Positions 2,778 through 29,128 of a stretch of 29,501 nt of DNA are shown piece by piece. The number at the start of each line of letters is the position of its first letter. Positions within the stretch are counted from its first letter, which is position 1. The stretch lies in IMG/VR virus record IMGVR_UViG_3300009474_000347, positions 1-29,501 of that record; one strand, 5' to 3'. A model generated the notes under the pieces. That model was given only the letters and a program-made list of their open reading frames with translations, made no database searches and had not been told where the DNA came from. The stretch is from a virus. The translations under genes were made by a program, and so were the position numbers.

Positions 2778-2784
2778 TTCGCGG

Positions 2785-10252: not shown

Positions 10253-10262
10253 TTACCTCCTC
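10253..10262 (-). promoter_or_regulatory. Consensus ribosome binding site overlapping the capsid stop codon
   Basis: The minus strand reads GAGGAGGTAA, 6 nt before the ATG at 10246; its first two bases lie in the capsid TGA stop. This near-perfect Shine-Dalgarno fixes the start of the capsid-partner gene and couples the two genes. Most other genes here have weak or no such site. Confidence 0.85.
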
Positions 10263-15340: not shown

Positions 15341-15505
15341 TCAGCGAGAACCGGCTTCCCGCTCCTTTGTACGCATCATACGAGCTTTCCGTGCTTTACG
15401 GACAGCTTCACGACGTACTTCATTACGCTCAGAACCTTCCTTTTCACCGCCGCCCTGGCGACCAGCAAAAGGCTTTTTGATCTGTTCCGTCATGAGATCA
15501 GCCAT
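15341..15505 (-). CDS. Small basic protein (54 aa)
   Basis: The sequence is MADLMTEQIKKPFAGRQGGG, then EKEGSERNEVRREAVRKARK and ARMMRTKEREAGSR. The second half is a highly charged helix with many Arg/Lys. The start overlaps the stop of the GT17 gene in an 8-nt ATGGCTGA overlap, and the stop lies 19 nt before the portal start. These contacts support a real, co-translated gene too short for default gene callers. Function is unknown; a nucleic-acid-binding or assembly-helper role is possible from charge. Confidence 0.65.
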   Translation of the reverse strand: MADLMTEQIKKPFAGRQGGGEKEGSERNEVRREAVRKARKARMMRTKEREAGSR

Positions 15506-16310
15506 TGGGAAGTAGATACTCGCGCACTCTCTCTATTTTAAACAGTTCAGGAGGCAAAAGTTCACAAGGATAGGAAGTTAACAAATGATCTTGTCGACCT
15601 AACATATCAGTATTACCTTCTTTTGGTTCAAAGTTATCACATAATTTTTGAATTTCAGGACGATCCCATACGTAATATTCTGCAATAGAGCGGAGTTTAG
15701 TTTTACGTTTATTAGAATCACCCATCCAACTTAAGTGCCAACCCGCGTCCCTAGTTCCAAAAAAGTAATTGTGTTGCGTGGAACGCATATAAGAAAGAGA
15801 ACCAAAATTTTTTAATCGACGAACAGTACTAACGACACTACATCTCCAGTCAAAAAGTTCGCCGTCGGGTGACATAAGTTGTCTATCGGCTCGACCATAG
15901 TGCATAGACATACTCAAACGTACGACTTTATCTTTCTCTTGATTGACAACTTGCACTAATTCGTCAAATTTTGTCGGGTTTGCTATCTCATCGCAATCAG
16001 AGCAAATAAAAATAGTATCGTCTGGCAACATGTGTAAACCTACACCTAACGCGTCTCGTTGACCTCGTTCACGAATCCACGGATCAGGAGCTTCGTCAAA
16101 TGAAGGGAGTTCAACATGGAGAACTTGAATTTTCTCCTCAGGAAGCCCGAGTTCTCGAATTGTATCAAGACAGGTAAAAGGCTTTTCTTCACCGCGATGA
16201 GTTCGATTGGCGTCCGTAATCAAAAAACCGTCGACATAATCTTCGAGAGAGCGGATACGGAGCTCTAAAATTTCACGCTCGTTAAAGTAGGGAAAACAAT
16301 CTACAAGCAT
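15498..16310 (-). CDS. Family 17 glycosyltransferase (GT17, N-acetylglucosaminyltransferase-like)
   Basis: The N-terminus MLVDCFPYFNEREILELRI followed by LEDYVDGFLITDANRTHRGE is diagnostic of GT17, whose eukaryotic members add a beta-1,4-GlcNAc to mannose on glycans. The metal-binding motif is visible as CSDCDEI (Asp105 and Asp107 counted from the chosen start). A conserved-looking Trp-rich part follows (DAGWHLSWMGD). Length 270 residues is usual. I chose the ATG at 16310 because the family starts there; an in-frame GTG at 16349 would add 13 residues. No good ribosome binding site is seen at either. Donor and acceptor cannot be deduced. It is one of several glycan enzymes among virion genes and is AT-richer than the capsid genes. 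Confidence 0.85.
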   Translation of the reverse strand: MLVDCFPYFNEREILELRIRSLEDYVDGFLITDANRTHRGEEKPFTCLDTIRELGLPEEKIQVLHVELPSFDEAPDPWIRERGQRDALGVGLHMLPDDTIFICSDCDEIANPTKFDELVQVVNQEKDKVVRLSMSMHYGRADRQLMSPDGELFDWRCSVVSTVRRLKNFGSLSYMRSTQHNYFFGTRDAGWHLSWMGDSNKRKTKLRSIAEYYVWDRPEIQKLCDNFEPKEGNTDMLGRQDHLLTSYPCELLPPELFKIERVREYLLPNG

Positions 16311-16386
16311 TGTGAGGAAAAAAGCTAAGCCATAGTAACTCGACCTCACAGTTTTTGCAAGATAACACTGAAAACTTTATATAAAA

Positions 16387-16716
16387 TTAAGTAAAGCGAG
16401 GAATTACTTCTCCACGGTGGGCGTCCTCAACCTGAGCTGACTCAGCTGCGCGGCGATTTGCACGAGTCTTCTGCATCAACTCTTGCTTGATATCCTCCAT
16501 AGGATCCCCCGTGGGCTGGAATCCTTCCTCAAATACACCATAAGGTGCGTTCATAGGAGGTACAGGAGCGTTATAAGCTTGATCTTCTAGTTGACTTGTA
16601 TATTCATCGCTACGCATACTGGCTCGCTGAGCCTTCATCTGGCGACGAGCTGCTAGCTCCTGAGCGTTAAACGCACGAGTAAACAGATCACCGGCTTCGA
16701 GAAACGGATCAGCCAT
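16387..16716 (-). CDS. Hypothetical helical protein (109 aa)
   Basis: The protein starts MADPFLEAGDLFTRAFNAQE. Two charged helical parts (QELAARRQMKAQRASMRSDE; MEDIKQELMQKTRANRRAAE) flank a Pro/Tyr-rich, probably flexible segment (YNAPVPPMNAPYGVFEEGFQ). No family is recognised. Its start overlaps the stop of the 76-residue gene in an 8-nt ATGGCTGA overlap, so it is translated from the same message. It is the last of a run of four or five small coupled genes that starts near 17643. Context suggests a late assembly or virion-internal role. Confidence 0.66.
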   Translation of the reverse strand: MADPFLEAGDLFTRAFNAQELAARRQMKAQRASMRSDEYTSQLEDQAYNAPVPPMNAPYGVFEEGFQPTGDPMEDIKQELMQKTRANRRAAESAQVEDAHRGEVIPRFT

Positions 16717-16939
16717 TTTTAGAAGTCTTTCTCCTAATGTACTCGGAAGCGCGGCGTCTTGCTTCTCGCGCCTTATCAGTGTTCGCTACCTGAGTATTTA
16801 CAGGCTTATCACCTGCTGTAGCGCGTTTCTTTTTTTCGTCGGTAGCCCGACGTTCTTCAGGACTGAGAGAAGCCCACGCGGCACGTGGAAGGTATCGCTC
16901 AGTCCGTCCTTTCTCGCGTGCTTTGTCAGCCAAGGCCAC
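16709..16939 (-). CDS. Small basic protein with C-terminal ASEYIRRK motif
   Basis: The protein has 76 residues, very rich in Arg, Lys, Ala and Glu. It begins MALADKAREKGRTERYLPRA and ends KAREARRRASEYIRRKTSKNG (last 21 residues, quoted in part as RRRASEYIRRKTSKNG). The end is closely similar to that of the 60-residue protein at 12397-12579. The start overlaps the upstream 67-residue gene by 14 nt and the stop overlaps the 109-residue gene by 8 nt, so all three are co-translated. Function is unknown; the shared tail may be a common targeting or binding signal. Confidence 0.68.
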   Translation of the reverse strand: MALADKAREKGRTERYLPRAAWASLSPEERRATDEKKKRATAGDKPVNTQVANTDKAREARRRASEYIRRKTSKNG

Positions 16940-17129
16940 CCATCATCGCTTTAGCTGCTGCTGCCCGAGCAAGCATTTCGTTTTTAAGGGGATTTACCAA
17001 TCCCTGAGCGATTACATCTGAAGCTGCCTTACTTTTAACGGCTCGAATCAGATCTTCAGCGTCCCCAAGGACCCGTTCCCGGAAGGTAGATCCCCCAGAA
17101 AGATAACTAACGAGATCCGCGGCATCCAT
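16926..17129 (-). CDS. Hypothetical small helical protein (67 aa)
   Basis: It begins MDAADLVSYLSGGSTFRERV and continues with an amphipathic helix (LGDAEDLIRAVKSKAASDVI), then an Ala-rich end (MLARAAAAKAMMGGLG). No family is recognised. It starts 2 nt after the DUF5872-like gene and overlaps the 76-residue gene by 14 nt. That tight packing supports it as a real member of the small-gene run. The Ala/Met/Gly-rich end is not long enough to be a membrane anchor. Confidence 0.65.
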   Translation of the reverse strand: MDAADLVSYLSGGSTFRERVLGDAEDLIRAVKSKAASDVIAQGLVNPLKNEMLARAAAAKAMMGGLG

Positions 17130-17131
17130 AA

Positions 17132-17362
17132 TCAGTCTTTTTTGGACTTCTCGTACTCTTCACGAGTTTGCCAGTCTTCCTTGGACCAGCGGCTCAAGCG
17201 GTTGGACGAAGATTTTTTACCTTCGTAAGTACCGCCGGCTTCTTTATAGTACTTGGTTGCGAGCTGCATCGCTCGTGCCGAGTGCCCACCTAATTTCTTA
17301 CGGGCTTTAGCTTTCGCTGCCGCCCACTTTTTAGGATCACGTTTTTTAGCGATTTCAGCCAT
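17132..17362 (-). CDS. DUF5872-like small basic protein
   Basis: The 76-residue protein MAEIAKKRDPKKWAAAKAKA, then RKKLGGHSARAMQLATKYYK and EAGGTYEGKKSSSNRLSRWS matches a family I recall from many aquatic phages and large viruses (pattern DPKKWAxAKAxAxxKxGGxHSARAMQxAxKxYKxxGG...W). Its function is unknown. The frame is open up to 17425, but the real start is the ATG at 17362 because it shares one base with the stop of the upstream gene (TAATG) and matches the family's N-terminus. It is followed after 2 nt by the 67-residue gene. Confidence 0.82.
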   Translation of the reverse strand: MAEIAKKRDPKKWAAAKAKARKKLGGHSARAMQLATKYYKEAGGTYEGKKSSSNRLSRWSKEDWQTREEYEKSKKD

Positions 17363-17643
17363 TAATATAAAACCATAACGTTTGTGACGTTTCCACTGAT
17401 TAATGCTGTTGCAGATATAGGGCAAATAAAATCACCATTTAGATGATCATTTTCGCATACTTGTCCAGGTGCGTCAGAAAACTCTAAAGCTAAGGTTTTA
17501 TTATTGCCCCCACCATTTTGAATAAACAATGCGCGACAAGAAGGAAAATTAACTCTTCCATCAGAGGGAACCCATTTAAATCCGCTGGTATAAGGAAGGC
17601 TAGCCGTCTGCCCGTAAATAGACCCAAACGCTCTTACGTCCAT
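17362..17643 (-). CDS. Small beta-rich protein, possibly a virion (spike-base-like) protein
   Basis: The 93-residue protein has the order RALFIQNGGGNNKTLALEFS, a short loop, DFICPISATALISGNVTNVM and a terminal VLY. This resembles small phage beta-barrel proteins of the spike-base type (C-R-A-L-x-V-G..G...., LP...I..TGTTA..IVALY). The match is by pattern only and is weak. It is coupled to the DUF5872-like gene by a TAATG junction. Alternatives are a minor tail or decoration protein. Confidence 0.6.
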   Translation of the reverse strand: MDVRAFGSIYGQTASLPYTSGFKWVPSDGRVNFPSCRALFIQNGGGNNKTLALEFSDAPGQVCENDHLNGDFICPISATALISGNVTNVMVLY

Positions 17644-17671
17644 GAGTAATCTGTTTTCCTACATTATAGGT

Positions 17672-17953
17672 TCACTGTTCGCTCTCTTCGATCAACCGGT
17701 CCAAATACCATCTAGCTTTTTTCAAATCCTGAACTTTGTTTTTGTGTTCTGTGCGCCACAGGTACTTGATGATATTTCCGCGACAGTAGGCTTTAAAACC
17801 CTCAAACCCTAAAGCGGCCTTAAGAGCTTCAATACACTCAATGCCGCCTTGCGTATAGTGAGCTGGGTGATTTACAGGATCGTTAAGCTGGGTTGAACCA
17901 GTAGATTGTCCCTTGCTCTCGTTCGACAAATCGTCGTAATCTGTACGCGTCAT
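17672..17953 (-). CDS. DUF3310 protein (T7 gp1.7-type family)
   Basis: The protein has 93 residues. The C-terminal two thirds match DUF3310: NHPAHYTQGGIECIEALKAA, GFKAYCRGNIIKYLWRTEHK, DLKKARWYLDRLIEESE. The best studied relative, T7 gp1.7, is a nucleotide kinase acting on dTMP and dGMP, but that protein is longer and many small DUF3310 proteins have no tested activity. The first about 28 residues (MTRTDYDDLSNESKGQSTGS) are polar and probably disordered. A nucleotide-metabolism role would fit the dCMP deaminase at the right end of the window, but it lies among late genes here. Confidence 0.85.
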   Translation of the reverse strand: MTRTDYDDLSNESKGQSTGSTQLNDPVNHPAHYTQGGIECIEALKAALGFEGFKAYCRGNIIKYLWRTEHKNKVQDLKKARWYLDRLIEESEQ

Positions 17954-18033
17954 CTCTAAATAAAGTCTGTTGGTAGTGGTGACCGTTCAGAACATAACAC
18001 ACCGACACATACTGTGCACCTCGATGCGCCACT

Positions 18034-18933
18034 TTACAATTTAAACATCTGTTTACAGTCTATCAAGTTACTAGACTTCTTAAGAAGCTCTTTAGTGTAC
18101 TTAGTATCGTCATGTTTAATTAAGCAACATTCATGCGGTACATATTTACCATCTTCCTCGACCACGGGGATCCAACGGCGGTGCTCGTGCCCCGTAGGAA
18201 CATTTTCAAAAGCTAAACCCATCGAACTACGGTCAGCTAAAGGCCAGTTACGGATCCCAACAAGCTCATAACTGCGAACGGGGTCCATACTTTGACTTCT
18301 AACGTATTTAACGGCATCTTGTTGATCCAAAATCATCGCGCCGTAGTAAGGATTCGACACTTGTGCAAAAAACTTGATGTCCGGGTCGACCACGAGCATC
18401 TTTTTGACCTCAAACCCGATGTCGTGCCAAACGTTCGGGGTCTCTCGCGTCAAGGAGAACGTGTGGTAGTTATCGAAGGGGATTTTCAGACCCGCGTACT
18501 CCTCATATCTGACGAAACCTGGCTCGAAACCGGCCGCACTTAACCTGTTTTTCCACCTAAACCAATATTTTAAATTTTCGTATGTCAGGATCATATCGTT
18601 CTCCTGATAAACGTAGAAATCTGCCGTGTAGTTCATACAAGCCAGTACAAGATCGGTCTTATGTGCCCATGTGAGCTCCCAACCGGAATATTCAGGTCCG
18701 CAAACTTTGATTTCTATGTTTAATTTCGAAAAATAAGGCTCTAGAATACTTTTTAGGGTCTCTACGTCTTTTTCTGACTCGTAATCTACATAAATATTTA
18801 TTTTTACTTCTAAATCATAATCTAAATAAGCGCGAACAGTGTTAACTAATGAATTTATACGTTTTAAAGGTTGGTGAGCCGTTATCGCGACCCACATTCG
18901 AGACCCAGAAAGCGTGGAAGTGTGAGTTTTCAT
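18034..18933 (-). CDS. Putative glycosyltransferase (GT-A-like)
   Basis: The 299-residue protein begins with a Rossmann-like first strand and loop, MWVAITAHQPLKRINSLVNT (13-32), then strands KINIYVDYES and IEIKVCGPEYSGWELTWAHK. ADFYVYQENDMILTY (104-118) contains an E-N-D triad at the place where GT-A enzymes carry the metal-binding DxD. NPYYGAMILDQQDAV is in the C-terminal half. These features suggest a nucleotide-sugar-dependent transferase, but no specific family is recognised. The start is the ATG at 18933, which shares one base with the terminase stop (TGATG); the open frame further upstream lies within the terminase gene. Low-GC codons resemble the other glycan genes. Confidence 0.62.
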   Translation of the reverse strand: MKTHTSTLSGSRMWVAITAHQPLKRINSLVNTVRAYLDYDLEVKINIYVDYESEKDVETLKSILEPYFSKLNIEIKVCGPEYSGWELTWAHKTDLVLACMNYTADFYVYQENDMILTYENLKYWFRWKNRLSAAGFEPGFVRYEEYAGLKIPFDNYHTFSLTRETPNVWHDIGFEVKKMLVVDPDIKFFAQVSNPYYGAMILDQQDAVKYVRSQSMDPVRSYELVGIRNWPLADRSSMGLAFENVPTGHEHRRWIPVVEEDGKYVPHECCLIKHDDTKYTKELLKKSSNLIDCKQMFKL

Positions 18934-20453
18934 CAGTACTCGATCGAGAAGTTCCCGCGACGCTGTAAAAATGTAATCAGCCAAGTGTATGCGTCCAATA
19001 AATCGTCATGAGCTGTAGCACCGACGTTAATCAACTGGTCAAAAAGACCATCAAACTTACGGTATTTGTTAAAAGTCACCTTTTTATTCTCTAACAACCC
19101 CAAGGTGCCCCTAAATCTAGCAATTTTGTCCCCTCGGAAACCCTTGACTTCATGAATATGGAGGTTACTTAGACCTCGCTCATTAAGAAGCACCCGTCTG
19201 AGGTCCGCCGCAAGGGATGCCTGGTACGCAACAGACTCAACCACGAGCGTAATCGTGGAATATGTCGGGAAAAATTGTCCGTCTTGCTGCGTAAGGATGC
19301 CCCATTCCAACAGCATGTCGCACAATAGGTCGATTTTTTCGAGGTTTCCGATGGATCGACACTGATGCGCATCAATTATGTAGTAGTTATCCTTAAGCCG
19401 CCCACCTAGCACAAACGCTGTGTAATCACTCGTTTCGTTTTTACTCGCCGAGAGGTCAATACCGACAGCCAAACTGTCAAACTCGGTAACCACTTCACCC
19501 TTAATAAGTAGATCAGGAGACACAACCAAGTCAGAAGTCATGACCGGTTGCTGCTGATACTGATACGCGAACGCAACAGGATCCAGTTCCTTCTGGCCGA
19601 GAAGGTAATCGGCACTCCATTGTTCTGGCCAATAGCTGACGGGTTCACCACGATCGTCATATGTGATCGCTTCCTGCGTTACCTGCTTCCAACCCTTCTC
19701 CGGGATAAACATCGTCTTGTGGATGTCCAACGGGTGGAAACGAGTTCCCAGGCAAATCGATCTCCCGCCTTCAAAAATAATCGGAGCGATCACAGAGCTC
19801 CAGTTATTATTCATTTCATCCCTAATAGCAGGGTTTTTAATATCCGCACTGGACTTAATAGGGTCATCTACGATAACAATATGAGCACGTTTAGACGTAA
19901 TAGAGCCTCGCAGACCTGCAGCACGTAATGTAAACTCTTCGTCACCGAGCCTGGGGATACCTGCATAATCGAAGTCAATCGACCAACCGATATCTGACTG
20001 CATACCCGAGCGAAGCTTTACACGCGGGAATACTTTGCGATACTCAGGAGAGTCGATAATCTGCTTGATAATACGGCTCTTGGGGATAGCTGTGGCAATG
20101 TTGTACGAACAGTAAATAATCTGGAGAGGTCTTTTTTCAGTGGTGTGTCGACCGATAATCCACGCGGTAAACAGGTTCAGCACCGTGGACTTCGCGGAGC
20201 CCCTCGGTGCCAAAATATCCAGATTTTGCCCAGCAATATCTAGTAAGTACTTATTTGACTCGCCTGTAATCAAGTGTCTGTGCCACTCCAGCATGTGACG
20301 AGCTGGAGTTTTGTCTAGAATAGTACAGAAAGTATGAAAGTCATTAGCTGCTCTAGTGTATATAGTGTCGATCGATTTATCGGTGCTCTCTGAGGCTTTT
20401 TTAGCCTGCAGTTGAGCACTGCGACGGTAGGCGAAAGAGGCACGGCTAGGCAT
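18933..20453 (-). CDS. terL: Terminase large subunit (ATPase and nuclease)
   Basis: The 506-residue length is usual. The N-terminal ATPase has Walker A PRGSAKST (83-90), Walker B IVIVDD (192-197) and the coupling-type segment SICLGTRFHP (232-241). The C-terminal RNase-H-like nuclease has GIDLSASKNETSDYTAF (331-347, Asp333), VVESVAYQ (404-411, Glu406) and AHDDLLDAYTW (481-491, Asp483/484/487), giving the acidic metal cluster. TerL docks on the portal and pumps and cuts DNA during packaging. No small terminase subunit is recognised with confidence nearby; the 176-residue gene at 22762 is a weak candidate. It is transcribed divergently from the GT4 gene across a 54-nt gap. Confidence 0.95.
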   Translation of the reverse strand: MPSRASFAYRRSAQLQAKKASESTDKSIDTIYTRAANDFHTFCTILDKTPARHMLEWHRHLITGESNKYLLDIAGQNLDILAPRGSAKSTVLNLFTAWIIGRHTTEKRPLQIIYCSYNIATAIPKSRIIKQIIDSPEYRKVFPRVKLRSGMQSDIGWSIDFDYAGIPRLGDEEFTLRAAGLRGSITSKRAHIVIVDDPIKSSADIKNPAIRDEMNNNWSSVIAPIIFEGGRSICLGTRFHPLDIHKTMFIPEKGWKQVTQEAITYDDRGEPVSYWPEQWSADYLLGQKELDPVAFAYQYQQQPVMTSDLVVSPDLLIKGEVVTEFDSLAVGIDLSASKNETSDYTAFVLGGRLKDNYYIIDAHQCRSIGNLEKIDLLCDMLLEWGILTQQDGQFFPTYSTITLVVESVAYQASLAADLRRVLLNERGLSNLHIHEVKGFRGDKIARFRGTLGLLENKKVTFNKYRKFDGLFDQLINVGATAHDDLLDAYTWLITFLQRRGNFSIEY

Positions 20454-20507
20454 ATCAACAAACTGACAGTACTGCTATATTGATTGTACTAGAAACTCAG
20501 ATCAAGC

Positions 20508-21680
20508 ATGTCGAAAATTCTCTGGTATGGAGATGCTTGTAGTAACACCGGGTTTGGCCGTGTAACACACAGTGTTCTGGAGCATTTAAGCAAAGATCAT
20601 GAAGTTTGTGTTTTAGGTATTAACTATACCGGGGATCCCCACACCTATCCGTACAAGATCTATCCAGCTTGCGCAGGTGGGTCCCAGGACCGCTTTGGAA
20701 TCAACAGGATCCCGGAAATCTTAACGAAGGAAAAACCGGACGTCGTTATCTGTCTGAACGACATATGGATCGTCAATCAGTTCTGGGAGCGCTGTCACTT
20801 CCTGAAGGACGATTTGGGCTTCAAATTCATCGCTTATTTCCCTGTCGATAGCGAGAGCTACTACCCGGATATGTTGCAGCACATGCCTTTCTGGGATCTG
20901 GCGATCACCTTTACTGTTAACTGTGCGCACCGAATCATGGCGCACAAAATCAACATACCTCGACTAGGTGTACTCCCCCACGGTGTAGATAGCGGCAGGT
21001 TCTACCCAACCGACAAGAAAGAGGCAAGGGAACAACTAGGACTCCCTCTGGACAAATTTATAGTTTTCAACGGCAATCGCAACCAGCCTCGTAAGCGGAT
21101 CGATCTGACGATCCAAGCCTTCGCGGACTTCGCGGTCGACAAACCGGACACGATGCTTTATCTCCATATGGGGGCGAAAGATCTTGGATGGGACGTCATG
21201 CCGTTGTTCCACCGGGAGATGACGAAACGGGGACTCGACGACAAACATCGACTGATCCTGACCTCACCTAACATGAATTACATGGATGCTCCTCCAGATA
21301 CATTATTAAACACTATTTATAACGCTTGCGATGTTGGTCTTAACACCGCTGACGGTGAAGGCTGGGGCCTCGTTAGTTTCGAAAATGCAAGCTGCCGTAA
21401 GCCTCAAGTAGTCCCGAATCACACCGCGTGTAAAGATATTTGGGAAGGGGCGGCCCAACTCGCGGATATTGCCACGTGGGTCGTCGATAAAGATCTAGGG
21501 GTGGAGAGAGGTCTTGTAAACGTGAAGCACACAGCTGAACTTCTGACCGAGCTCTACGCGGACAAGGGTATTTACGAAGAAGTTGCCGCTGCTTGCTACG
21601 CAGTGACTCAGCGTCCCGAATATCGCTGGGAGTCCGTAGCCATGGGATTCTCGAAAGCTATCTCCGATCTTGCCGCCTGA
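20508..21680 (+). CDS. GT4-type (GT-B fold) glycosyltransferase
   Basis: The 390-residue protein has the two Rossmann halves of GT-B enzymes. The N-terminal half starts MSKILWYGDACSNTGFGRVT, with the usual Gly-rich acceptor-side loop. The C-terminal donor half has LPHGVDSGRFYP (156-167), FNGNRNQPRKRIDLTIQAF (187-205) with the phosphate-binding Arg/Lys, and the E-x7-E element E284-GWGLVSF-E292 followed by ASCRKPQVVP. This is the layout of family GT4 retaining transferases. Donor and acceptor are unknown. It is followed by the beta-propeller gene with a 2-nt gap, so the two form an operon on the plus strand in the middle of minus-strand late genes. Confidence 0.85.
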   Translation: MSKILWYGDACSNTGFGRVTHSVLEHLSKDHEVCVLGINYTGDPHTYPYKIYPACAGGSQDRFGINRIPEILTKEKPDVVICLNDIWIVNQFWERCHFLKDDLGFKFIAYFPVDSESYYPDMLQHMPFWDLAITFTVNCAHRIMAHKINIPRLGVLPHGVDSGRFYPTDKKEAREQLGLPLDKFIVFNGNRNQPRKRIDLTIQAFADFAVDKPDTMLYLHMGAKDLGWDVMPLFHREMTKRGLDDKHRLILTSPNMNYMDAPPDTLLNTIYNACDVGLNTADGEGWGLVSFENASCRKPQVVPNHTACKDIWEGAAQLADIATWVVDKDLGVERGLVNVKHTAELLTELYADKGIYEEVAAACYAVTQRPEYRWESVAMGFSKAISDLAA

Positions 21681-21682
21681 TC

Positions 21683-22765
21683 ATGCAGATATCTCATCGT
21701 TTCTTTCATGCTTATAGTGACGTTCTGTTTCCTATCAAAACAGAATCGACTGGAGTTCCAACTGTGTACGCACAAGCGGAGCAATTAGGCGGCAAATTTA
21801 CCCGGATCGTAAACGGGCTTCCTGAAAACACGATCGCAAACTTTAACCCGTCTGTAATCAGATACAACAACACCGATTACATAGCGTGGCGCTGTCAGCC
21901 GCAACCATTCGGCTTCAGGCACGATATGAAGTACTTCTATTTAAACGGACAGCCCAACGATATTTATATCGGAATGCTGGGCACTGACGACGCCAGCATT
22001 ATCGGGGCTAAAAAACTCCGCCCTAAAAAGCATCGCCTTAGTTACGAAGATCCTCGTTTGTTTAAAGGTCCCGACGACCAACTGTACGTACAATTCGTAA
22101 CTTCTACGTATGCCAGTCGGTATGACACAAAAGACTACAAACTGTTTCACCAGCCGAAGGTATCCGTCTGCTGGGTAAACGAAAACTTCGAAGCTGTTCA
22201 ATCAGCCACGCCTCCGATTGGTGAAAATCTCGTCAAAGGAAAAGCCGAAAAAAACTGGTGTTTCTTCTCGCGTAACGATGAGTTGGCTTGTCTTTATTCA
22301 ACTCGTCCCTTGGTCGTCGAAAGCGAAAAAACACCTCGAATCGAACTAGACACGCAGGTTCTTGACACGGTAACGCGTGGAGCACCGACGTTTAACTCGA
22401 CAGCTCCTATCGACCTTGGGTACGGTTACTTAATTTTCTACCACTGGAAACACACGACTTTTGCCCCTGGTGGTAAACCGTATCTTATATATCACGTCAG
22501 CGCTTATATGGTAGATAAAGAGTTCAAAAAAGTAATTTACTTAATTGATAAACCATTGTTTACCGGGTCTTTGAATGACCGCGTAATCGAATGGACGGAT
22601 CTAGGAGGAAACCCGGTCTCCAATCAACCGGCGGTCATCCTTCCATTTGGGGCATATGTAAACGGAACAGAGCTCGTTATGTCTTTAGGCGTAAATGATG
22701 CCTTTATGGGTATCTTTAGAACCCAGCTGGAGAACATTATGAAACTTCTGAAGAAAGTCGATTAA
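21683..22765 (+). CDS. GH130/GH43-like five-bladed beta-propeller carbohydrate enzyme
   Basis: The 360-residue protein shows regularly spaced propeller-blade motifs: NFNPSVIRYNNTDYIAWR (53-70), SYEDPRLFKGPDDQLYVQFV (120-139), KAEKNWCFFSRNDELACLYS (187-206) and RGAPTFNST...GYGYLIFYH (232-254). The E-D-P-R, E-K-N-W and G-A-P...L-I-F-Y-H elements follow the order seen in GH130 mannoside phosphorylases and related GH43/GH32 propellers. Whether it hydrolyses, phosphorolyses or only binds glycans cannot be told. The ATG at 21683, 2 nt after the GT4 stop, is the natural start; the open frame further upstream lies inside the GT4 gene. It overlaps the next minus-strand gene by 4 nt, tail to tail. Confidence 0.72.
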   Translation: MQISHRFFHAYSDVLFPIKTESTGVPTVYAQAEQLGGKFTRIVNGLPENTIANFNPSVIRYNNTDYIAWRCQPQPFGFRHDMKYFYLNGQPNDIYIGMLGTDDASIIGAKKLRPKKHRLSYEDPRLFKGPDDQLYVQFVTSTYASRYDTKDYKLFHQPKVSVCWVNENFEAVQSATPPIGENLVKGKAEKNWCFFSRNDELACLYSTRPLVVESEKTPRIELDTQVLDTVTRGAPTFNSTAPIDLGYGYLIFYHWKHTTFAPGGKPYLIYHVSAYMVDKEFKKVIYLIDKPLFTGSLNDRVIEWTDLGGNPVSNQPAVILPFGAYVNGTELVMSLGVNDAFMGIFRTQLENIMKLLKKVD

Positions 22766-23292
22766 GACTTTTCTTCATTTTCCATGGTTGTCCAGACAAG
22801 CAGCGAGGCGTCCTCTAATAAAGCTTGGACGCCTGGTTGCCCATCAAACGTCTGAACAAGCTCGCGCAAACAACGATCAGCGCCAGCGAGTAATAAACCA
22901 CGGCGATCAAGACCGTCGGAAATAGACCGTACCGCCTGAATGTGACTGCGAAGCTCTTTTTGCAGCGCTGATATTTTAGTGGCTGCGGTAGCATAATCTA
23001 ACATTTGATTCTGAGTCATATCTCGCACATTACGGATATCCAGTTGAAGATCATCGATCTCGCGCAGCAGGACCTTACGAAGATCCTCTTTTGGATATTT
23101 TTCCTGAATCCAGGCCGTAAGATCGGAGATACTGCCAGCGTAAGCGGGGTTTAAAAAGCGAGCATAAAGATAAGCTTCAATATCTGATGTAGTGTTTTTT
23201 GCATAATATACAAACGCGTCTTTCTGAGCTTTGTCGAGCGAAGCTAACCACGAGGCAACCGTGGTGGAATCCCCGATAGCGGATTTGATCAT
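22762..23292 (-). CDS. Hypothetical helical protein (176 aa), possible assembly or ejection protein
   Basis: The protein is almost wholly alpha-helical. The segment DLRKVLLREIDDLQLDIRNV, followed by NQMLDYATAATKISALQKEL, looks like a coiled coil (residues about 69-118). The N-terminal part (WLASLDKAQKDAFVYYAKNT; ARFLNPAYAGSISDLTAWIQ) resembles a small helical domain as found in DNA-binding small terminase subunits, followed by an oligomerising coiled coil, but no family is recognised. The start shares ATGA with the stop of the upstream 239-residue gene. Its position behind candidate internal virion genes also allows a virion role. Confidence 0.62.
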   Translation of the reverse strand: MIKSAIGDSTTVASWLASLDKAQKDAFVYYAKNTTSDIEAYLYARFLNPAYAGSISDLTAWIQEKYPKEDLRKVLLREIDDLQLDIRNVRDMTQNQMLDYATAATKISALQKELRSHIQAVRSISDGLDRRGLLLAGADRCLRELVQTFDGQPGVQALLEDASLLVWTTMENEEKS

Positions 23293-24008
23293 GCGAATGC
23301 TCGCTGGCCGGCCATCGCCATTCCAGCACCGAACCGCTTCACTGCCAACTGGCCTTCAACTTGACCACGCTGCAGAGCTAAAGCATTGCGTGTGTCTTCT
23401 TGAGCTTTAGCGATATTTAAATTAGTTTGCGTCGTGGCCAATACCTGCTGGTTACGCGTCTTAGCGGCTTCTAAACCTGTTTGAGCTGCGGCAGTCACCG
23501 TAGGAAGGAGAAGCTGAGTTTCACCTTGTAATCCAGTTTGCTGCAACGCACCAGCCGTGGTACCGAATTGCTTAGCTAACGCAGAAGCGGTTTCAGGACC
23601 GAGCATCTCGGTTGCGAGCTTCGCTTTGCCTGCAGCTTCTCCCAGCCCGATAGCACTGCTAGCGAGCTGAGACGCAATACCAGTCTGAAGACCCGCAGCC
23701 GTTAAATCCTTTTGTTTGGCAACGTCGAATTGACCAAGTGCACTCTCAAGAGCTACGTTGGCACGATTACCAAGAAGACCTGTGTAAGCACCGGTCATAG
23801 CGGCAAGCTCCTGACCGGCCAACGTGCTTTTGACCTGGCCAGGTATTAACTGGGCATATAAAGAGGAGAAGTCAGCTTGACCTCCCCCGCCTCCCATAAA
23901 CGCACCAGCTAATGAACCGATTCCACCTAGGGCGGATCCGATCCCCATTAAGGTGCCGCCAGTACCGGCGAATAGCGCAGGGGCGGCAGCGGCAACAGGT
24001 GCAGCCAT
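23289..24008 (-). CDS. Ala/Gly-rich candidate internal virion or ejection protein
   Basis: The protein has 239 residues. It begins MAAPVAAAAPALFAGTGGTL, then GIGSALGGIGSLAGAFMGGG: a long hydrophobic, Gly-rich segment (about 4-42) that could insert in membranes. The remainder is a long Ala/Gln-rich helical region with heptad-like spacing (ALESALGQFDVAKQKDLTAA; NLNIAKAQEDTRNALALQRG). This layout is typical of podovirus internal core or ejection proteins such as the T7 gp14 class, although no sequence match is claimed. It is coupled to the next gene by ATGA and starts 2 nt after the 245-residue gene. Confidence 0.68.
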   Translation of the reverse strand: MAAPVAAAAPALFAGTGGTLMGIGSALGGIGSLAGAFMGGGGGQADFSSLYAQLIPGQVKSTLAGQELAAMTGAYTGLLGNRANVALESALGQFDVAKQKDLTAAGLQTGIASQLASSAIGLGEAAGKAKLATEMLGPETASALAKQFGTTAGALQQTGLQGETQLLLPTVTAAAQTGLEAAKTRNQQVLATTQTNLNIAKAQEDTRNALALQRGQVEGQLAVKRFGAGMAMAGQRAFA

Positions 24009-24010
24009 AA

Positions 24011-24748
24011 TTAACCTCGGGGGCGGATATTGAAGGGAGCCGTAGATGCTTTGTAGATCTCGGCGAAGTTAGAAAGATTCGGAGTCATTGCCGAAACCGT
24101 AGCAAGACCTAATGCCATCTGCTGACGAGCATTAGCCTCAATTTGAGCCGTTTTAATGGCTTGCCACGCTTGAATGTTCTGACGTTCGATCTCTGCCGCT
24201 TGCTTCTGACGCTCACGTGGAGCACGCAAGGCGCTAAGAACCGTGGAAGCCTCGATTAAGTTACGGGTTTTGATCCGACTTAATTCTTCCTGATACGCGG
24301 GATCTGCGTAGCGATCAATGCGCTCTAAGATCTCAGACGTAATAGGTTCTTGTTCTTGCTTAGCCCCTTCACCATCTAAAGATGGTCCTCCTCCGGGAGC
24401 TTTAGCACCCGTATCAGCGTTTGTGTCAGCGGAGGCGTCTCCGTTGTTATTCGAATCTTGCTTATCATTCTGTTGTACTGTCTCGGGAGGAGTGTATCCT
24501 TTCGGATAAGCACCAAAGACTTCTTTGTAAGACTCTGGGCTTTGATACCCATAGTCCTTACCTGCGTAATAAACAGGTCTGCCGCCGAGCTTAGCTGCTT
24601 GTCCTACAGACGGTTCAGTTGCAACGTCACGTCGAGAAGCGTCGCGAAATGCTTCGAGACCCATCCGTGTGAGCATCGGCGAAGGCGAAGGGATCGCGTA
24701 ACTCGCTACGTCTAAAAGGCGATCTTCAAGAAACTGAAGAGGATTCAT
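24011..24748 (-). CDS. Candidate internal virion protein (245 aa)
   Basis: It starts MNPLQFLEDRLLDVASYAIP behind a good ribosome binding site (AAGGAGGT, 10 nt before the ATG). The middle (about 92-135) is Asn/Asp/Gly-rich and disordered (NNNGDASADTNADTGAKAPG). The C-terminal about 100 residues are a long charged helix (LIEASTVLSALRAPRERQKQ; AAEIERQNIQAWQAIKTAQI) and end MTPNLSNFAEIYKASTAPFN. No family is recognised. Position between two other helical, Ala-rich genes suggests a set of proteins that assemble together, probably inside the virion. Confidence 0.65.
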   Translation of the reverse strand: MNPLQFLEDRLLDVASYAIPSPSPMLTRMGLEAFRDASRRDVATEPSVGQAAKLGGRPVYYAGKDYGYQSPESYKEVFGAYPKGYTPPETVQQNDKQDSNNNGDASADTNADTGAKAPGGGPSLDGEGAKQEQEPITSEILERIDRYADPAYQEELSRIKTRNLIEASTVLSALRAPRERQKQAAEIERQNIQAWQAIKTAQIEANARQQMALGLATVSAMTPNLSNFAEIYKASTAPFNIRPRG

Positions 24749-24763
24749 TGTCCAACAACCTCC

Positions 24764-25318
24764 TTAGGTCGCCCCAGCAATCGATTGCAGGACGTTGCTG
24801 TTATCCAGTCTATCTTGCGCTAACACGTTCTTAATCGCCGAATCAAGAACATTTTGAGCGAAATTGTAGGAAGAGCCCACGCGTTCGCGTTGGATATCCC
24901 CGAGAGAACGGACCTCTTGCTGCTCGATAGCAGCTTTACCACGGGCAAGTTCGTTAAGATACTCGTATTGCCTCTTAAGTTGCTCCATCTGCATTTGACG
25001 TTCATTAAGGCTCTGAGCCTGCCTTTCTAAACGTTGCTCAACACCTCCCATAAACTCCTCAGGAGAATCCAGCGGAGGCAAATCAAAACCAAGATTATTT
25101 AAAAGATTACGTCTGAATTGCTCATTAGCGTAGTACTGCGAATACGCAAGCTCAGGAGCAGCTCCTTGGAAGTATGGTTTACTGACTGCGGATTCAGCCA
25201 CGTCGTACTGCGATGGAGCTGCGGCAGCGGCTGCGGGGTTAGAAAGATTATTAGCAACGACATCCGAAAGCAAGCTCAGTAAGAACTGCCCAGCAGTACC
25301 AACGATAGGAGCAGCCAT
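24764..25318 (-). CDS. Candidate internal virion protein with hydrophobic N-terminus (184 aa)
   Basis: It starts MAAPIVGTAGQFLLSLLSDV, similar in style to the 239-residue protein (both MAAP followed by a hydrophobic segment). A poly-Ala stretch follows (NPAAAAAAPSQYDVAESAVS). The centre is a coiled-coil-like region, VEQRLERQAQSLNERQMQME and QLKRQYEYLNELARGKAAIE (about 93-132), and it ends VLQSIAGAT. No family is recognised. The start shares one base with the stop of the 77-residue gene (TAATG). A membrane-active or ejection role is inferred from composition and neighbours. Confidence 0.65.
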   Translation of the reverse strand: MAAPIVGTAGQFLLSLLSDVVANNLSNPAAAAAAPSQYDVAESAVSKPYFQGAAPELAYSQYYANEQFRRNLLNNLGFDLPPLDSPEEFMGGVEQRLERQAQSLNERQMQMEQLKRQYEYLNELARGKAAIEQQEVRSLGDIQRERVGSSYNFAQNVLDSAIKNVLAQDRLDNSNVLQSIAGAT

Positions 25319-25551
25319 TAACTTCCAGCGGGATTATCGTAAGAAGTTCCGGACGGGATCTTCTTATTTGATTTTACACCTTCAGTCTCACCTGGGGGGA
25401 TAATTCCAAGGCTCAACTGATGTTTGGAGGGAAGTGAAGCGGTCTGAGGAAAGTTAGACCGAATGTACAGACTCAAAAACGAAGAGGGATTCAGAGGCGG
25501 AGAATCCCTTCGAACGTCGAGTTCTCGCAGCTGTTGCTCTCGGACGTTCAT
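25318..25551 (-). CDS. Hypothetical small protein (77 aa)
   Basis: The sequence begins MNVREQQLRELDVRRDSPPL and continues with a short hydrophobic part (SSFLSLYIRSNFPQTASLPS) and a polar tail ending GTSYDNPAGS. There is no recognised family. It starts 1 nt after the stop of the 167-residue gene and is coupled to the downstream gene by TAATG, which supports translation. The composition suggests a mostly unstructured small virion or assembly protein. Confidence 0.6.
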   Translation of the reverse strand: MNVREQQLRELDVRRDSPPLNPSSFLSLYIRSNFPQTASLPSKHQLSLGIIPPGETEGVKSNKKIPSGTSYDNPAGS

Positions 25552-25552
25552 G

Positions 25553-26056
25553 TTAGCCCAGTTCCTGATAAGCCACGGAAGCGGGAATGGAGCTGCTGGA
25601 GGGCGCGTTCAGAACAGAGTATTGCCCGCCGTAGTTAGGAAGATCGTATTCAAGAGGACGTTGACGGCTGAGGTACTCGGCACCTTCCATTCCGTCATTA
25701 CGGAGGTTCTGTACAAAATCCAGGAACATCTCCATCAAACCAGGATCCTGGAACAACATGCCTACAAGTTCCTGCAGTTCTGCTTCATCGGAGGGAGAGG
25801 TCGCCGTGGCCTGTAAACGACGCATTAACTGCCCACGAACCTCAGGCTGAGAGTTATCGGGATATCCGTTTAACGACCGAGTAGGCGACGTCATAATTCC
25901 GTCCCCTTCCCGACCGGGCATAGGAGGTGCAACCCGGTGAAAATTACGCAGAACAGCGGCAGTCATAGGAGCCGCAGCAGCCATTTCGGCAGGGGTTTTA
26001 GGGCAAGGAAGACCTAAAACACGAGATGCGAACTCATAATCCTGGGGACTAAACAC
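25553..26056 (-). CDS. Hypothetical protein (167 aa), late-region
   Basis: I take the GTG at 26056 as start (MFSPQDYEFASRVLGLPCPK), which overlaps the end of the HTH gene by 8 nt and has AGAGGCGG upstream. The frame is also open to a TTG at 26095, which would add 13 basic residues read from within the HTH gene. The protein has a helical Ala/Met-rich part (TPAEMAAAAPMTAAVLRNFH), a Pro-rich linker and an acidic helical section (SPSDEAELQELVGMLFQDPG; LMEMFLDFVQNLRNDGMEGA). The end is polar (NAPSSSSIPASVAYQELG). No family is recognised; context suggests an assembly or internal virion protein. Confidence 0.62.
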   Translation of the reverse strand: MFSPQDYEFASRVLGLPCPKTPAEMAAAAPMTAAVLRNFHRVAPPMPGREGDGIMTSPTRSLNGYPDNSQPEVRGQLMRRLQATATSPSDEAELQELVGMLFQDPGLMEMFLDFVQNLRNDGMEGAEYLSRQRPLEYDLPNYGGQYSVLNAPSSSSIPASVAYQELG

Positions 26057-26318
26057 CTGAACACACCGCCTCTGTTGCTTCCATCTTAGACGCAATCCGA
26101 AGAATATCGCCAGGCTGGACGTCCAAAACTAAACAGATGCGCTCCAGAACTTCCGGGGAGGGAATGTAAAACTTGTCGGAGTAAATCTTCCGTGTCGTAG
26201 TGGGCGACAGATCAGATATTTTGCTGAATTTAAAAGACGTAATAGCTTTGTCGTCCAAAACAGAACGCAAAGTATTGACTAATCGCCCTTCAGTGGGGTA
26301 AGAAGAGTAGAAAGGCAT
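26049..26318 (-). CDS. XRE/Cro-type helix-turn-helix regulator (89 aa)
   Basis: The region GRLVNTLRSVLDDKAITSFK (11-30), FSKISDLSPTTTRKIYSDKF (31-50) and SPEVLERICLVLDVQPGDIL (54-73) is the five-helix XRE domain. The end with L-x-x-I-C-x-x-L-D-V-Q-P-G-D-I-L is typical of the YozG/HTH_26 subgroup. Such small proteins bind operator DNA. It is coupled by an 8-nt overlap to the 167-residue gene and preceded by a 28-nt gap after the YkgJ-like gene, so it is embedded in the late operon and could adjust its own transcript. No palindromic operator was recognised in the short leader. Confidence 0.82.
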   Translation of the reverse strand: MPFYSSYPTEGRLVNTLRSVLDDKAITSFKFSKISDLSPTTTRKIYSDKFYIPSPEVLERICLVLDVQPGDILRIASKMEATEAVCSGV

Positions 26319-26346
26319 CGCGCTGCCTCAAGTATCAGTATCTTAA

Positions 26347-26670
26347 CTATATCTTGACTAAGTAAGATTCGTCCAAATCTGAATCCAAAATAAGAGTGTT
26401 GCAGCTAACGGCGTTTAATCGGAACCACGCGTCTAAGTCGTATCTAGATTCCTCACCAAGTTTTTTAATATTACACAATAAGGGTCTATCATCATACACA
26501 CTACACAAGCCGTTCTGTAACTTCACACAAGCACCGTTAATATCCGTGTCGTAGGGAAAAGCTTCAATAGCTTTGTACATAACTGGAAGATCTTTATAGT
26601 TATTTATGTTATCCTGAATTTCTCGTATTTTCCCACAACATAGTCCGCAGCTAGTACAAGGAAAATCCAT
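26347..26670 (-). CDS. YkgJ-like cysteine-cluster (zinc or Fe-S binding) protein
   Basis: The 107-residue protein carries the YkgJ family signature: C5-T-S-C8-G-L-C11-C12 at the N-terminus, then C48 and LCSVYDDRPLLCN (55-67, C56 and C66). The consensus is CxxCGxCC...C...CxxYxxRPxxC. The family is thought to bind zinc or an iron-sulfur cluster through these cysteines; its reaction is unknown, and members often sit beside glycan or protein-modification genes. It starts 2 nt after the stop of the GT2-type gene, so they are co-translated and may act together. The region is AT-rich compared with the capsid genes. Confidence 0.83.
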   Translation of the reverse strand: MDFPCTSCGLCCGKIREIQDNINNYKDLPVMYKAIEAFPYDTDINGACVKLQNGLCSVYDDRPLLCNIKKLGEESRYDLDAWFRLNAVSCNTLILDSDLDESYLVKI

Positions 26671-26672
26671 AA

Positions 26673-27437
26673 CTAGAAACCTAAATTTTTAGCTCTAACA
26701 AATTCAAGATTGTAAGTCGTAAGACTTACTGGAAGCGCTTCGTTATTAAAAGGATGTGGATACACGTCGCCCTCAATGTGGGCTTGCCACGCTGGGCTCC
26801 ACTTGGCGTGCAAGTAGTGCTTGTTCATTTCGTGCGCAATATGAATTTTTTCAGCTAGCGCAGGTTCACTGCGCCATGTCTGAGAACCGTCGGCGTAGTC
26901 CCCGCAGGTCTCACCGTGGAAGTAAGGAACGCCAACAGACATATGACGTTTCAATTCCTTATGTTTAAAACGCTGTCCATACTCCATATCTTCACAGTAC
27001 GCTGGGTATAAATTTTCGTCGAACAAACCATAATTCTGAACAACCCAATCTTTAAGTAAAAAGAAATCCCAACTTCCATTTTCTCCATGAACGATACCTA
27101 CTTCAGGGTCTTCAGCATGAGAAACCGCGTTTTTTAAAAAACCTGGAGTAAACATAATGTCGTGATTTACAATGATCCAATAGGGACTGTTCATAAAGCA
27201 TTTTATAATCATATTCCAGTACCCACTACAACCAATATTAGCTGGCATATGACATACTTTTACATTTTTAACGTATTTGTGAGGAACTTTCTTAAGTAAA
27301 TCAAGTTCTTCGGTTATTTGATCCCTGCCGTTGTTATTAAAGACAACAAAGGTATCTACAGGATAGTCTATACTGTAAAATAATCTGTAAACCCAATGAG
27401 GAGCGTTAACAATGCCAGTGCCTATAACCGGAATCAT
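26673..27437 (-). CDS. GT2-type (GT-A fold) glycosyltransferase
   Basis: The 254-residue protein shows the order of a GT-A inverting transferase: short first strand (MIPVIGTGIVNAPHWVYRLF), DTFVVFNNNG (28-37), PANIGCSGYWNMIIK (65-79), WIIVNHDIMFTPGFL (87-101) with Asn-His-Asp in place of DxD, and GLFDENLYPAYCEDMEYGQR (137-156). That last motif (G-x-F-D-E....Y-x-E-D-x-E/D) is strongly associated with GT2-like rhamnosyl- and related transferases; Glu149 or Asp150 would be the catalytic base. Substrates are unknown. It lies head-to-head with the plus-strand HNH gene across 37 nt, and is coupled to the YkgJ-like gene downstream. Confidence 0.8.
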   Translation of the reverse strand: MIPVIGTGIVNAPHWVYRLFYSIDYPVDTFVVFNNNGRDQITEELDLLKKVPHKYVKNVKVCHMPANIGCSGYWNMIIKCFMNSPYWIIVNHDIMFTPGFLKNAVSHAEDPEVGIVHGENGSWDFFLLKDWVVQNYGLFDENLYPAYCEDMEYGQRFKHKELKRHMSVGVPYFHGETCGDYADGSQTWRSEPALAEKIHIAHEMNKHYLHAKWSPAWQAHIEGDVYPHPFNNEALPVSLTTYNLEFVRAKNLGF

Positions 27438-27474
27438 CTGAGGTAAACTGGACTGACACTATGGTACCAGAAGC

Positions 27475-27960
27475 ATGGGTCGAAATCCAAAGTACGTAAA
27501 TGAGTTCGACTATTATCTACAGAAAATAAACATCCAATCCCCGACTCAGTGCTGGAACTGGGTAGGAAGTGTAAAAGACTGCGGTCACGGAATGTGGGGC
27601 TATAAGTCTTACCGGAATGGGACAAAAATAGCGAGTAGGGAAACGTACAGGTTATTTAAAGGAGATCCAAAGGATATGTTCGTGTGTCACAGTTGTGGGA
27701 ACCCTAGGTGCTGTAACCCAAACCATCTTTATTTAGGAACAGCTAAACAAAATCAAATGGATAGAGTAAAACACAACACGAGTAACAGAGGCAGCAGGTG
27801 CGGAACAGCCAAATTAAACGAAGATCAAGTGATACATATAAAAAAATTAATAAAAAATAAAGTAAAACTTATCGACATTGCAATAAAATTCGGTGTGTCT
27901 GAAAGCACTGTAAAAGCAATAAAACAAAATAGGAACTGGGCGCACTTAAAAGTTGATTGA
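27475..27960 (+). CDS. HNH homing endonuclease (HNH_3 type) with C-terminal HTH
   Basis: The 161-residue protein has QCWNWVGSVKDCGHGMWGY (25-43), SRETYRLFKGDPKDMFVCHS (54-73) and CGNPRCCNPNHLYLGTAKQN (74-93). Together they form the beta-beta-alpha-metal HNH nuclease with His72, Asn81 and His84. A NUMOD-like spacer (CGTAKLNEDQVIHIKKL) and a helix-turn-helix (IDIAIKFGVSESTVKAIKQN) complete the usual homing endonuclease layout. Its DNA is strongly A-rich (many AAA/ATA codons), unlike the capsid genes, consistent with a mobile gene inserted between the GT2-type and FkbM genes. It is on the same strand as FkbM, 32 nt upstream. Confidence 0.88.
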   Translation: MGRNPKYVNEFDYYLQKINIQSPTQCWNWVGSVKDCGHGMWGYKSYRNGTKIASRETYRLFKGDPKDMFVCHSCGNPRCCNPNHLYLGTAKQNQMDRVKHNTSNRGSRCGTAKLNEDQVIHIKKLIKNKVKLIDIAIKFGVSESTVKAIKQNRNWAHLKVD

Positions 27961-27968
27961 AGTGCTAA

Positions 27969-27974
27969 TATAAT
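27969..27974 (+). promoter_or_regulatory. Perfect -10 hexamer before the FkbM gene
   Basis: TATAAT lies 18 nt before the ATG at 27993. The best -35 match is CTTAAA with an 18-bp spacer (3/6), so the site would need an activator or is fortuitous. If used, the leader would be only about 12 nt. Confidence 0.3.
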
Positions 27975-27992
27975 TCCAGATTTGCTCCTACA

Positions 27993-28700
27993 ATGGCCAT
28001 CTGCGTCTGGAATCCAGAGTTAGACCAGATCACTGCAGCGCAGGGACTGACCTTCTTAATGCACCGGGACGAATCAGCTCAGTGCCAAATGCACAACGTC
28101 GGAGTACCCGAGGCAGCAATCATCAACTGGGCGAAAAAGCAGTTTGCCGACAAAAATAAAACTTTTATCGACGGAGGAGCTCATATGGGCGTCTACTCTG
28201 TCCTTCTCGCAGATAGCTTTAAGGAAGTCCATGCTTTCGAAGCCCAGCACAGAACGTATTTACAGCTCTGCGGAAACCTATTTTTGAACGAAAAAGAAAA
28301 TGTACGTCCGTACAACGTGGCCATCACAAGTCCACCCAAAGCAAATCAAATAACAACTCTGTCAATCGTATCGGAAGACGGCGGAGGGTCAACCATTTGT
28401 CCTCCCCACGCCCCTGTGCTCTCGACAGAGAAGGTTGCGACAAAAACAATCGATAGCTACCACATTGAAAATGTCGGTCTAATCAAGTTGGATATAGAAG
28501 GTAATGAGCTCTGCGCTCTAGAAGGAGCGCGGAATACAATCGAAAAAAACTACAAACCTCCGATCATTTTCGAAGCAAACAACGACGCATGGTTCGCCGA
28601 CCAGAAAGAGGAGCTATTTAACTACCTAAACAAAATCGAGTATGACATCGTAGAGATCAGACCTTTTAACAATATGTATGTAGCTCTTAAACGTCAATAA
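27993..28700 (+). CDS. FkbM-family SAM-dependent methyltransferase
   Basis: The 235-residue protein has motif I TFIDGGAHMGVYSVLLA (57-73) for S-adenosylmethionine binding, the acidic end of strand 2 VHAFEAQ (79-85), and LIKLDIEGNELCALEGA (162-178). This last element (hydrophobic-K-x-D-I/V-E-G-x-E) is diagnostic of FkbM enzymes, which O-methylate sugars or other small hydroxyls. Phage copies often sit near glycosyltransferases, as here. A role in capping or modifying a glycan made by neighbouring transferases is plausible but not shown. It overlaps the dCMP deaminase tail to tail by 14 nt. Confidence 0.88.
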   Translation: MAICVWNPELDQITAAQGLTFLMHRDESAQCQMHNVGVPEAAIINWAKKQFADKNKTFIDGGAHMGVYSVLLADSFKEVHAFEAQHRTYLQLCGNLFLNEKENVRPYNVAITSPPKANQITTLSIVSEDGGGSTICPPHAPVLSTEKVATKTIDSYHIENVGLIKLDIEGNELCALEGARNTIEKNYKPPIIFEANNDAWFADQKEELFNYLNKIEYDIVEIRPFNNMYVALKRQ

Positions 28701-29127: not shown

Positions 29128-29128
29128 A

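Follow-up and report, generated by a model that had tools for sequence, protein, structure and literature searches.

The window analysed here is a stretch of 29,501 bases that makes up the whole of IMG/VR virus record IMGVR_UViG_3300009474_000347. It carries six genes for putative glycan-related enzymes, which lie on both strands amid the genes for the terminase large subunit (TerL), the portal and the major capsid protein (MCP). Comparison with related phages indicates that these genes are not simply scattered but form a conserved core module, with the FkbM gene as an accessory member. All six open reading frames (ORFs) had been named in a sequence-only reading of the window, and each was confirmed on the strand that it gave:

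15498..16349, minus strand: GT17-family glycosyltransferase (PF04724, 55 vs 26 bits, E 9e-15)
18034..18894, minus strand: GT-A fold glycosyltransferase of no named family (AlphaFold model with predicted local distance difference test score, pLDDT, of 94.8)
20508..21680, plus strand: GT4 (GT-B) glycosyltransferase (PF00534, 29.1 vs 26.4 bits; PHROG 2170, E 1e-45)
21683..22765, plus strand: GH130-superfamily five-bladed propeller (PF04041, 36.3 vs 26 bits, E 4e-9)
26673..27437, minus strand: GT2-family glycosyltransferase (PF00535, 27.4 vs 23.3 bits, E 4e-6; PHROG 29879, E 5e-18)
27993..28700, plus strand: FkbM-type O-methyltransferase, accessory (PF05050, 46 vs 22.7 bits, E 8e-12)

The five family names that had been proposed (GT17, GT4, GH130, GT2 and FkbM) are borne out by scores above the curated Pfam cut-offs, given as the second bit value in each line. 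In the GT17 homologue alignment, an SD-x-DEI acidic metal-binding (DxD-type) motif is kept at 97% or more, and the gene probably starts with the ATG at 16310, since relatives begin near residue 9-14. The 18034 protein matched nothing in Pfam or PHROG. Its structure model, built from an alignment of 46 relatives, was matched by Foldseek (E 1e-5, probability 1.0) and VIA-align (best Z 11.2, 3.4 A over 174 residues) mainly to nucleotide-sugar GT-A enzymes, in agreement with its earlier label as a putative GT-A enzyme. It has invariant D-x-Y-x-Y-x-END and WP-x-ADRSS motifs, begins at the ATG at 18894 and not at the TTG at 18984, since the first 25 or so residues are missing in relatives, which have stop codons there, and appears to represent an unassigned glycosyltransferase family. 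The GT4 protein has an E-x7-E motif and a conserved GEGWGL..FE, and its profile matches B736L of chlorovirus NY-2A (PDB 3OY2, E 7e-33), the nearest solved relative; sequence-profile searches of the PDB with the GT-A, GH130, GT17 and GT2 alignments returned nothing meaningful. The GH130 gene starts 2 nt past the GT4 stop codon, and its product contains an invariant E122-D123-P124-R125. With VIA-align, the model of the propeller (pLDDT 89.4) is closest to the mannoside phosphorylases 1vkd/4udk (Z 24.8, 3.0 A over 272 residues), followed by a mannoside synthase (Z 23.6), the GT108 Leishmania mannosyltransferases (about 21) and GH43 enzymes (about 17). The propeller may be a phosphorylase or a GT108-like beta-mannosyltransferase; the GH130 structures are nearer, and the fold is not diagnostic of activity. 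The FkbM protein conserves the S-adenosylmethionine-binding motif D-x-GAHMG-x-YS. Ratios of nonsynonymous to synonymous substitution (dN/dS) against near relatives are 0.02-0.06 for the enzyme genes wherever dS is not saturated, which indicates strong purifying selection. The six ORFs are more than chance reading frames, because all are conserved with invariant motif residues and have these low ratios. No membrane segment was predicted in any of the enzymes.

The lineage of the window can be judged from three of its packaging and virion genes:

18933..20453, minus strand: TerL (PHROG 38, E 4e-75; 52% identity to that of Synechococcus phage S-EIV1)
13084..15321, minus strand: portal / virion structural protein (PHROG 20475, E 2e-162; 42% identity to S-EIV1)
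10261..11376, minus strand: MCP (PHROG 1357, E 3e-22; 69% identity to S-EIV1)

Relatives of the window reach 75-87 kb, and the GH130 gene of one 85,268-base contig is split over both of its ends, as expected of a complete circular genome. By these comparisons, the window is part of the genome of a phage of roughly 75-87 kb that is akin to S-EIV1, and this phage is best placed in an uncultured clade of cyanophages, the sister group of S-EIV1. The host is inferred on the basis of this relatedness. S-EIV1 itself, a virus from a lake, is described as representing a widespread cyanophage lineage (as cited in PMC5332604).

In order to compare gene content, each gene was searched in 48 IMG/VR contigs and S-EIV1, and the 43 contigs bearing this TerL (identity 81-100%) were taken as relatives. 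GT17, the GT-A gene and GT4 each occur in all 43. GH130 occurs in 42, the exception being a contig that begins inside GT4, so that it is present in 42/42 contigs covering the position; GT2 is found in 35/35, the other eight contigs ending before its position. The order and strands of the genes are identical in the seven large (78-87 kb) relatives that were examined. GT17 lies toward the portal side and the GT-A gene overlaps the end of the TerL gene; on the other side, GT4 and GH130 form a two-gene unit in the opposite direction, followed by GT2 and then FkbM where present. The glycosyltransferase genes are interleaved with the TerL and portal genes in all of the complete relatives examined. 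A gene-order comparison of this kind had been proposed as one check on the set, and its outcome speaks against independent occurrence of each gene: for five of the six, every relative whose contig reaches the position has the gene. FkbM could not be upheld as an essential member, as it occurs in only 22/43 relatives and is missing from a subclade typified by G020, G025 and G030. The count of six was itself too low, since the set extends in relatives to between five and eight enzymes with a CmcI/Methyltransf_24-type O-methyltransferase and a GT47. In contig G001 both lie about 1.7-3 kb past FkbM, beyond the point at which the window ends; the O-methyltransferase is also found in the G020-like subclade, and GT47 is patchy among relatives.

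The sister lineage presents the opposite picture. Among 80 loci with a TerL of at least 85% identity to that of S-EIV1, in which portal and capsid homologues were found, no GT17, GT-A, GH130, GT2, FkbM, CmcI-type O-methyltransferase or GT47 gene was detected near TerL, and GH130 was absent from the 16 S-EIV1-type contigs that were searched whole. GT4 occurs in 7/16 of the latter, away from TerL, and S-EIV1 has a GT4 homologue at 46% identity. In gene content, the two clades thus contrast in an all-or-none manner for the set, which amounts to one phylogenetic contrast and not to many independent ones.

Linkage of the same enzymes was also found outside this clade, on contigs of other phages that lack this TerL and were reached through their GT2 homologues. 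In one of these (L357:8051-10753), a single 901-aa ORF has the order [GH130-like]-GT17-GT2, with GT17 at residues 343-646 (E 3e-107) and GT2 at residues 651-901 (E 8e-103), and it follows a gene for a 1146-aa tail fibre and one for a collagen-repeat fibre with an Mtd_N domain. The N-terminal domain of the fusion had no Pfam match, an hmmsearch with the GH130 profile scored it no better than shuffled controls, and hhalign with the sequence alone aligned it poorly. Homologues of the first 340 residues of the fusion exist in phages S-SCSM2R, DSL-LC02 and DSL-LC01, annotated as 'MGP protein' and 'beta-mannosyltransferase', of which that in S-SCSM2R has a GH130 match at E 1e-4, below the cut-off. 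The domain was accepted as GH130-like because adding these homologues gave a four-sequence profile that aligned with the GH130 profile of the window (hhalign probability 36%, E 4e-4) via the landmarks NPSI, EDxRL and EKNW. In further contigs, GT17 is joined to a Methyltransf_24-like domain with GT2 following, or GT2 carries an N-terminal methyltransferase domain and GT17-GT17 follows. FkbM adjoins GT17 in phage RB11-B; S-CBS4 has a GT4 homologue, a weak GT2 and a methyltransferase between its portal and MCP genes; and DSL-LC02, a metagenome-assembled genome (PMC10611076), has a GH130-like gene and an FkbM/radical-SAM gene between those for a collagen-like protein and tail fibres. A multi-enzyme glycan set, as the sequence-only reading had envisaged, is therefore supported by co-conservation in the clade and by the fusion of GT17, GT2 and a GH130-like domain in another phage.

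One member of the set has been exchanged. The window GT17 is only 50-51% identical to those of nine phages with a TerL 95-100% identical to its own and is 83% identical to those of the G020-like subclade. The divergent stretch, at about 15.6-16.44 kb, nearly coincides with the gene itself, and its flanks have 73-98% nucleotide identity. GT17 type otherwise tracks the TerL clade (139:3 versus 2:53), and for this reason the case is a clear gene-sized replacement; relative to its closest phages, the window GT17 has the sequence signature of a swapped-in, foreign allele. Between the GT-A and GT17 genes lies a further variable gene:

17362..17643, minus strand: hypervariable 93-aa protein (from locus-pair identities)

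This ORF falls below 65% identity in 33% of locus pairs with a TerL 96-99.9% identical, the highest proportion among the genes tested. Speculatively, its product could be an exposed virion protein or a candidate acceptor.

As to the acceptor, the reading had suggested that the glycan might decorate the virion, perhaps on Ser/Thr-rich surface proteins. Decoration of the virion receives indirect support from three clues that suggest a virion protein as the acceptor, namely the fusion beside fibre genes, the DSL-LC02 locus at fibre genes and the neighbourhood of a cellular GT-A homologue. The last of these, a bacterial protein of 41% identity in a Thermodesulfovibrionia metagenome-assembled genome (L404:9977-10852), is encoded next to motA, motB, a CheY-like regulator, a Maf-type glycosyltransferase, a GT9 and radical-SAM/methyltransferase genes. 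The choice of Ser/Thr-rich proteins was not supported: neither N-X-S/T motifs nor Ser/Thr content picked out a clear acceptor among the window ORFs, of which 2785-3426 (25%) and 11457-12206 (22%) have the highest Ser plus Thr. The lack of predicted membrane segments means that the enzymes are likely soluble, which fits protein glycosylation. With respect to the sugar, the structure matches of the GH130/GT108 type act on beta-mannosides, and B736L binds GDP-mannose best (PMC9614988).

We consider glycosylation of a virion protein to be the best-supported mechanism and hold it with somewhat better than even confidence. The genes would constitute a lineage-specific glycan-assembly module whose soluble enzymes are made alongside the virion proteins and act on nucleotide-sugars of the host within its cytoplasm; among the Pfam hits of a complete relative there is no sugar-nucleotide synthesis gene. 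GT4, together with two or three enzymes of the GT-A fold (GT17, that at 18034 and GT2), would assemble a short oligosaccharide whose carrier is a virion protein, probably a fibre protein or some other exposed one. The GH130/GT108-like propeller would add or reversibly remove beta-mannose, and FkbM and the CmcI-type O-methyltransferase beyond the window would cap the chain by methylation. The GT17 allele swap would then alter one linkage or terminal sugar. It had been suggested that the enzymes could build, trim and cap a glycan; a glycan set is upheld, and trimming is the part that is not, as the relatives of the propeller include phosphorylases, a mannoside synthase and GT108 enzymes and it may build instead. 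More tentatively, and at less than even confidence, the GT17-GT2-GH130/GT108-like core with its O-methyltransferases could be an undefined phage system that places a methyl-capped, mannose-containing oligosaccharide on fibre or capsid proteins, recurs in unrelated phages as separate or fused genes, and has its GT17 swapped between clades in the manner of an antigen-type switch.

Several points weigh against virion glycosylation by a conserved module. Conservation within one clade is phylogenetically non-independent, and the identification of the fusion's N-terminal domain as a GH130-like propeller is of moderate confidence. The flagellin gene is not on the contig of the GT-A homologue and sits on another contig of that genome; this is the only close cellular GT-A homologue that the genome collection yielded, none further of full length being found in 396 genomes of the phylum. 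The role of B736L is itself unexplained, as the capsid glycan of NY-2A contains no mannose (PMC9614988). Soluble peripheral glycosyltransferases can also work on lipid-linked sugars. Finally, the glycan system is known here from genes alone, and we infer its donors and acceptor, its role and the operation of the enzymes as a single pathway; the main rival draws on this same point. By that rival, the enzymes act in infected cells to remodel the surface polysaccharide of the host, and might in this way block superinfection or keep progeny from re-binding to debris. Temperate phages alter host serotype with glycosyltransferases (PMC12619734), mixtures of GT2, GT4 and FkbM are typical of O-antigen loci, and the FkbM-GT17 pair of Synechococcus phage RB11-B lies within a large cluster of sugar-nucleotide and fucosyltransferase genes. 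We nevertheless regard host-surface remodelling as rather unlikely: neither the window nor the Pfam hits of the complete relative showed a flippase, an initiating phosphoglycosyltransferase or an enzyme with a membrane anchor, the enzyme genes are interleaved with virion genes, and the fused form stands beside tail fibres. No integrase was seen either, which makes long-lived serotype conversion unlikely.

The genes might also be separate morons with unrelated roles that lie near virion genes by chance, their pattern reflecting common descent only. Their scattered strands and positions would suit this, as would the patchiness of FkbM and GT47 and the fact that S-EIV1 has GT4 on its own and S-CBS4 has it with other enzymes. 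Against it, none of the five core genes has been lost across TerL identities of 81-100%, purifying selection is strong, and GT17-GT2 adjacency and fusion, as well as methyltransferase fusions, recur in other phages; we judge it improbable. Least probable is that the glycosyltransferases glycosylate modified bases of the phage DNA, as those of T4-like phages do (PMC9614988), and those of phages more widely (Pyle et al. 2024, as cited in PMC12619734). A dCMP deaminase is encoded at 28687-29142, but the Pfam hits of one complete relative, from a scan that passed over chunk-edge ORFs and those under 75-100 aa, include no dCMP/dUMP hydroxymethylase. The thymidylate synthase of that relative is ThyX, and neither the combination of GT17, GH130 and FkbM nor the fibre-gene neighbourhoods fit such a role.

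To our knowledge, virion glycosylation of tailed phages is documented in few systems, and we know of no GT17/GH130 core in chloroviruses. Virus-encoded virion glycosylation is known in kind, from mycobacteriophages and chloroviruses. Mycobacteriophages have phage-encoded glycosyltransferases, with glycans reported on capsid and tail-tube subunits and reported to have a role in immune shielding (Freeman et al. 2023, as cited in PMC12619734); the present set differs in belonging to a cyanophage clade, in its families (GT17, GH130-like and FkbM) and in being recognized from genes. The capsid N-glycan machinery of chloroviruses (PBCV-1 A064R, A111/114R; PMC9614988, PMC7826918) likewise combines viral glycosyltransferases with methylation to give a capped glycan on a virion protein, and the window GT4 is a profile-level homologue of B736L, although chloroviruses infect eukaryotic algae and use other glycosyltransferase families. 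The Synechococcus myophages RB11-B, S-B05, S-B43 and RN05-S all have a GT17 homologue. That of RB11-B is directly beside FkbM with GT2 genes nearby; unlike the window, RB11-B has its locus gathered in one large cluster that includes genes for nucleotide-sugar synthesis and, as far as it was read, lies apart from the virion genes; GH130 and the GT-A enzyme were not seen in it. S-EIV1 (KJ410740) shares the lineage by TerL, MCP and portal and has the GT4 homologue elsewhere in its genome, but lacks homologues of GT17, GT-A, GH130, GT2, FkbM, the O-methyltransferase and GT47. Maf-type flagellin glycosylation islands resemble the set in cytosolic protein glycosylation and in the cellular GT-A homologue beside motAB, CheY-like and Maf-type genes, whereas the phage has no flagellin and the window no Maf-type enzyme. 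Searches on S-EIV1 with glycosyltransferases and on GT17 in phages found no description of the set in the open-access literature, which counts as weak evidence that it is new. As far as the literature could be searched, the combination of enzymes, its constant position within the clade, the fusion of three domains and the family of the GT-A enzyme appear to be undescribed.

An entire widespread cyanophage clade keeps a five-enzyme core by its packaging genes, and the sister clade without it offers a natural with/without comparison for the role of a virion glycan. With the three-domain fusion, one polypeptide can be expressed and assayed, and from the GT17 allele swap a definite change is predicted, either in linkage or in the terminal sugar.

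One other neighbouring gene could possibly belong to the module:

26347..26670, minus strand: CxxCxxCC cysteine-cluster protein, accessory (PF03692, E 7e-9; 2 bp from GT2)

It is patchy, occurring in some relatives only. Also patchy among relatives are an HNH homing endonuclease gene between GT2 and FkbM (27475-27960, plus strand) and an ORF homologous to an HNH-like ORF of G020 (2268-2918, minus strand), which overlaps the 3' end of the fibre-like gene 2785-3426. The dCMP deaminase gene (minus strand, Pfam E 1e-23) is missing in the G020-like subclade. A Ferritin/Dps-like protein (1754-2293, plus strand, Pfam E 7e-10), whose S-EIV1 homologue is annotated as DNA-binding ferritin-like, adjoins tail-fibre-like genes. 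The window's TerL is free of the long in-frame insertions that split TerL in S-EIV1 (L002) and in contigs G014, G017, G019 and G033; these occur at two different sites, one following roughly residue 87 and the other roughly residue 199, and are consistent with inteins. The complete relative G016 (L366) encodes MoxR-type AAA and von Willebrand factor A domain proteins in its replication region.

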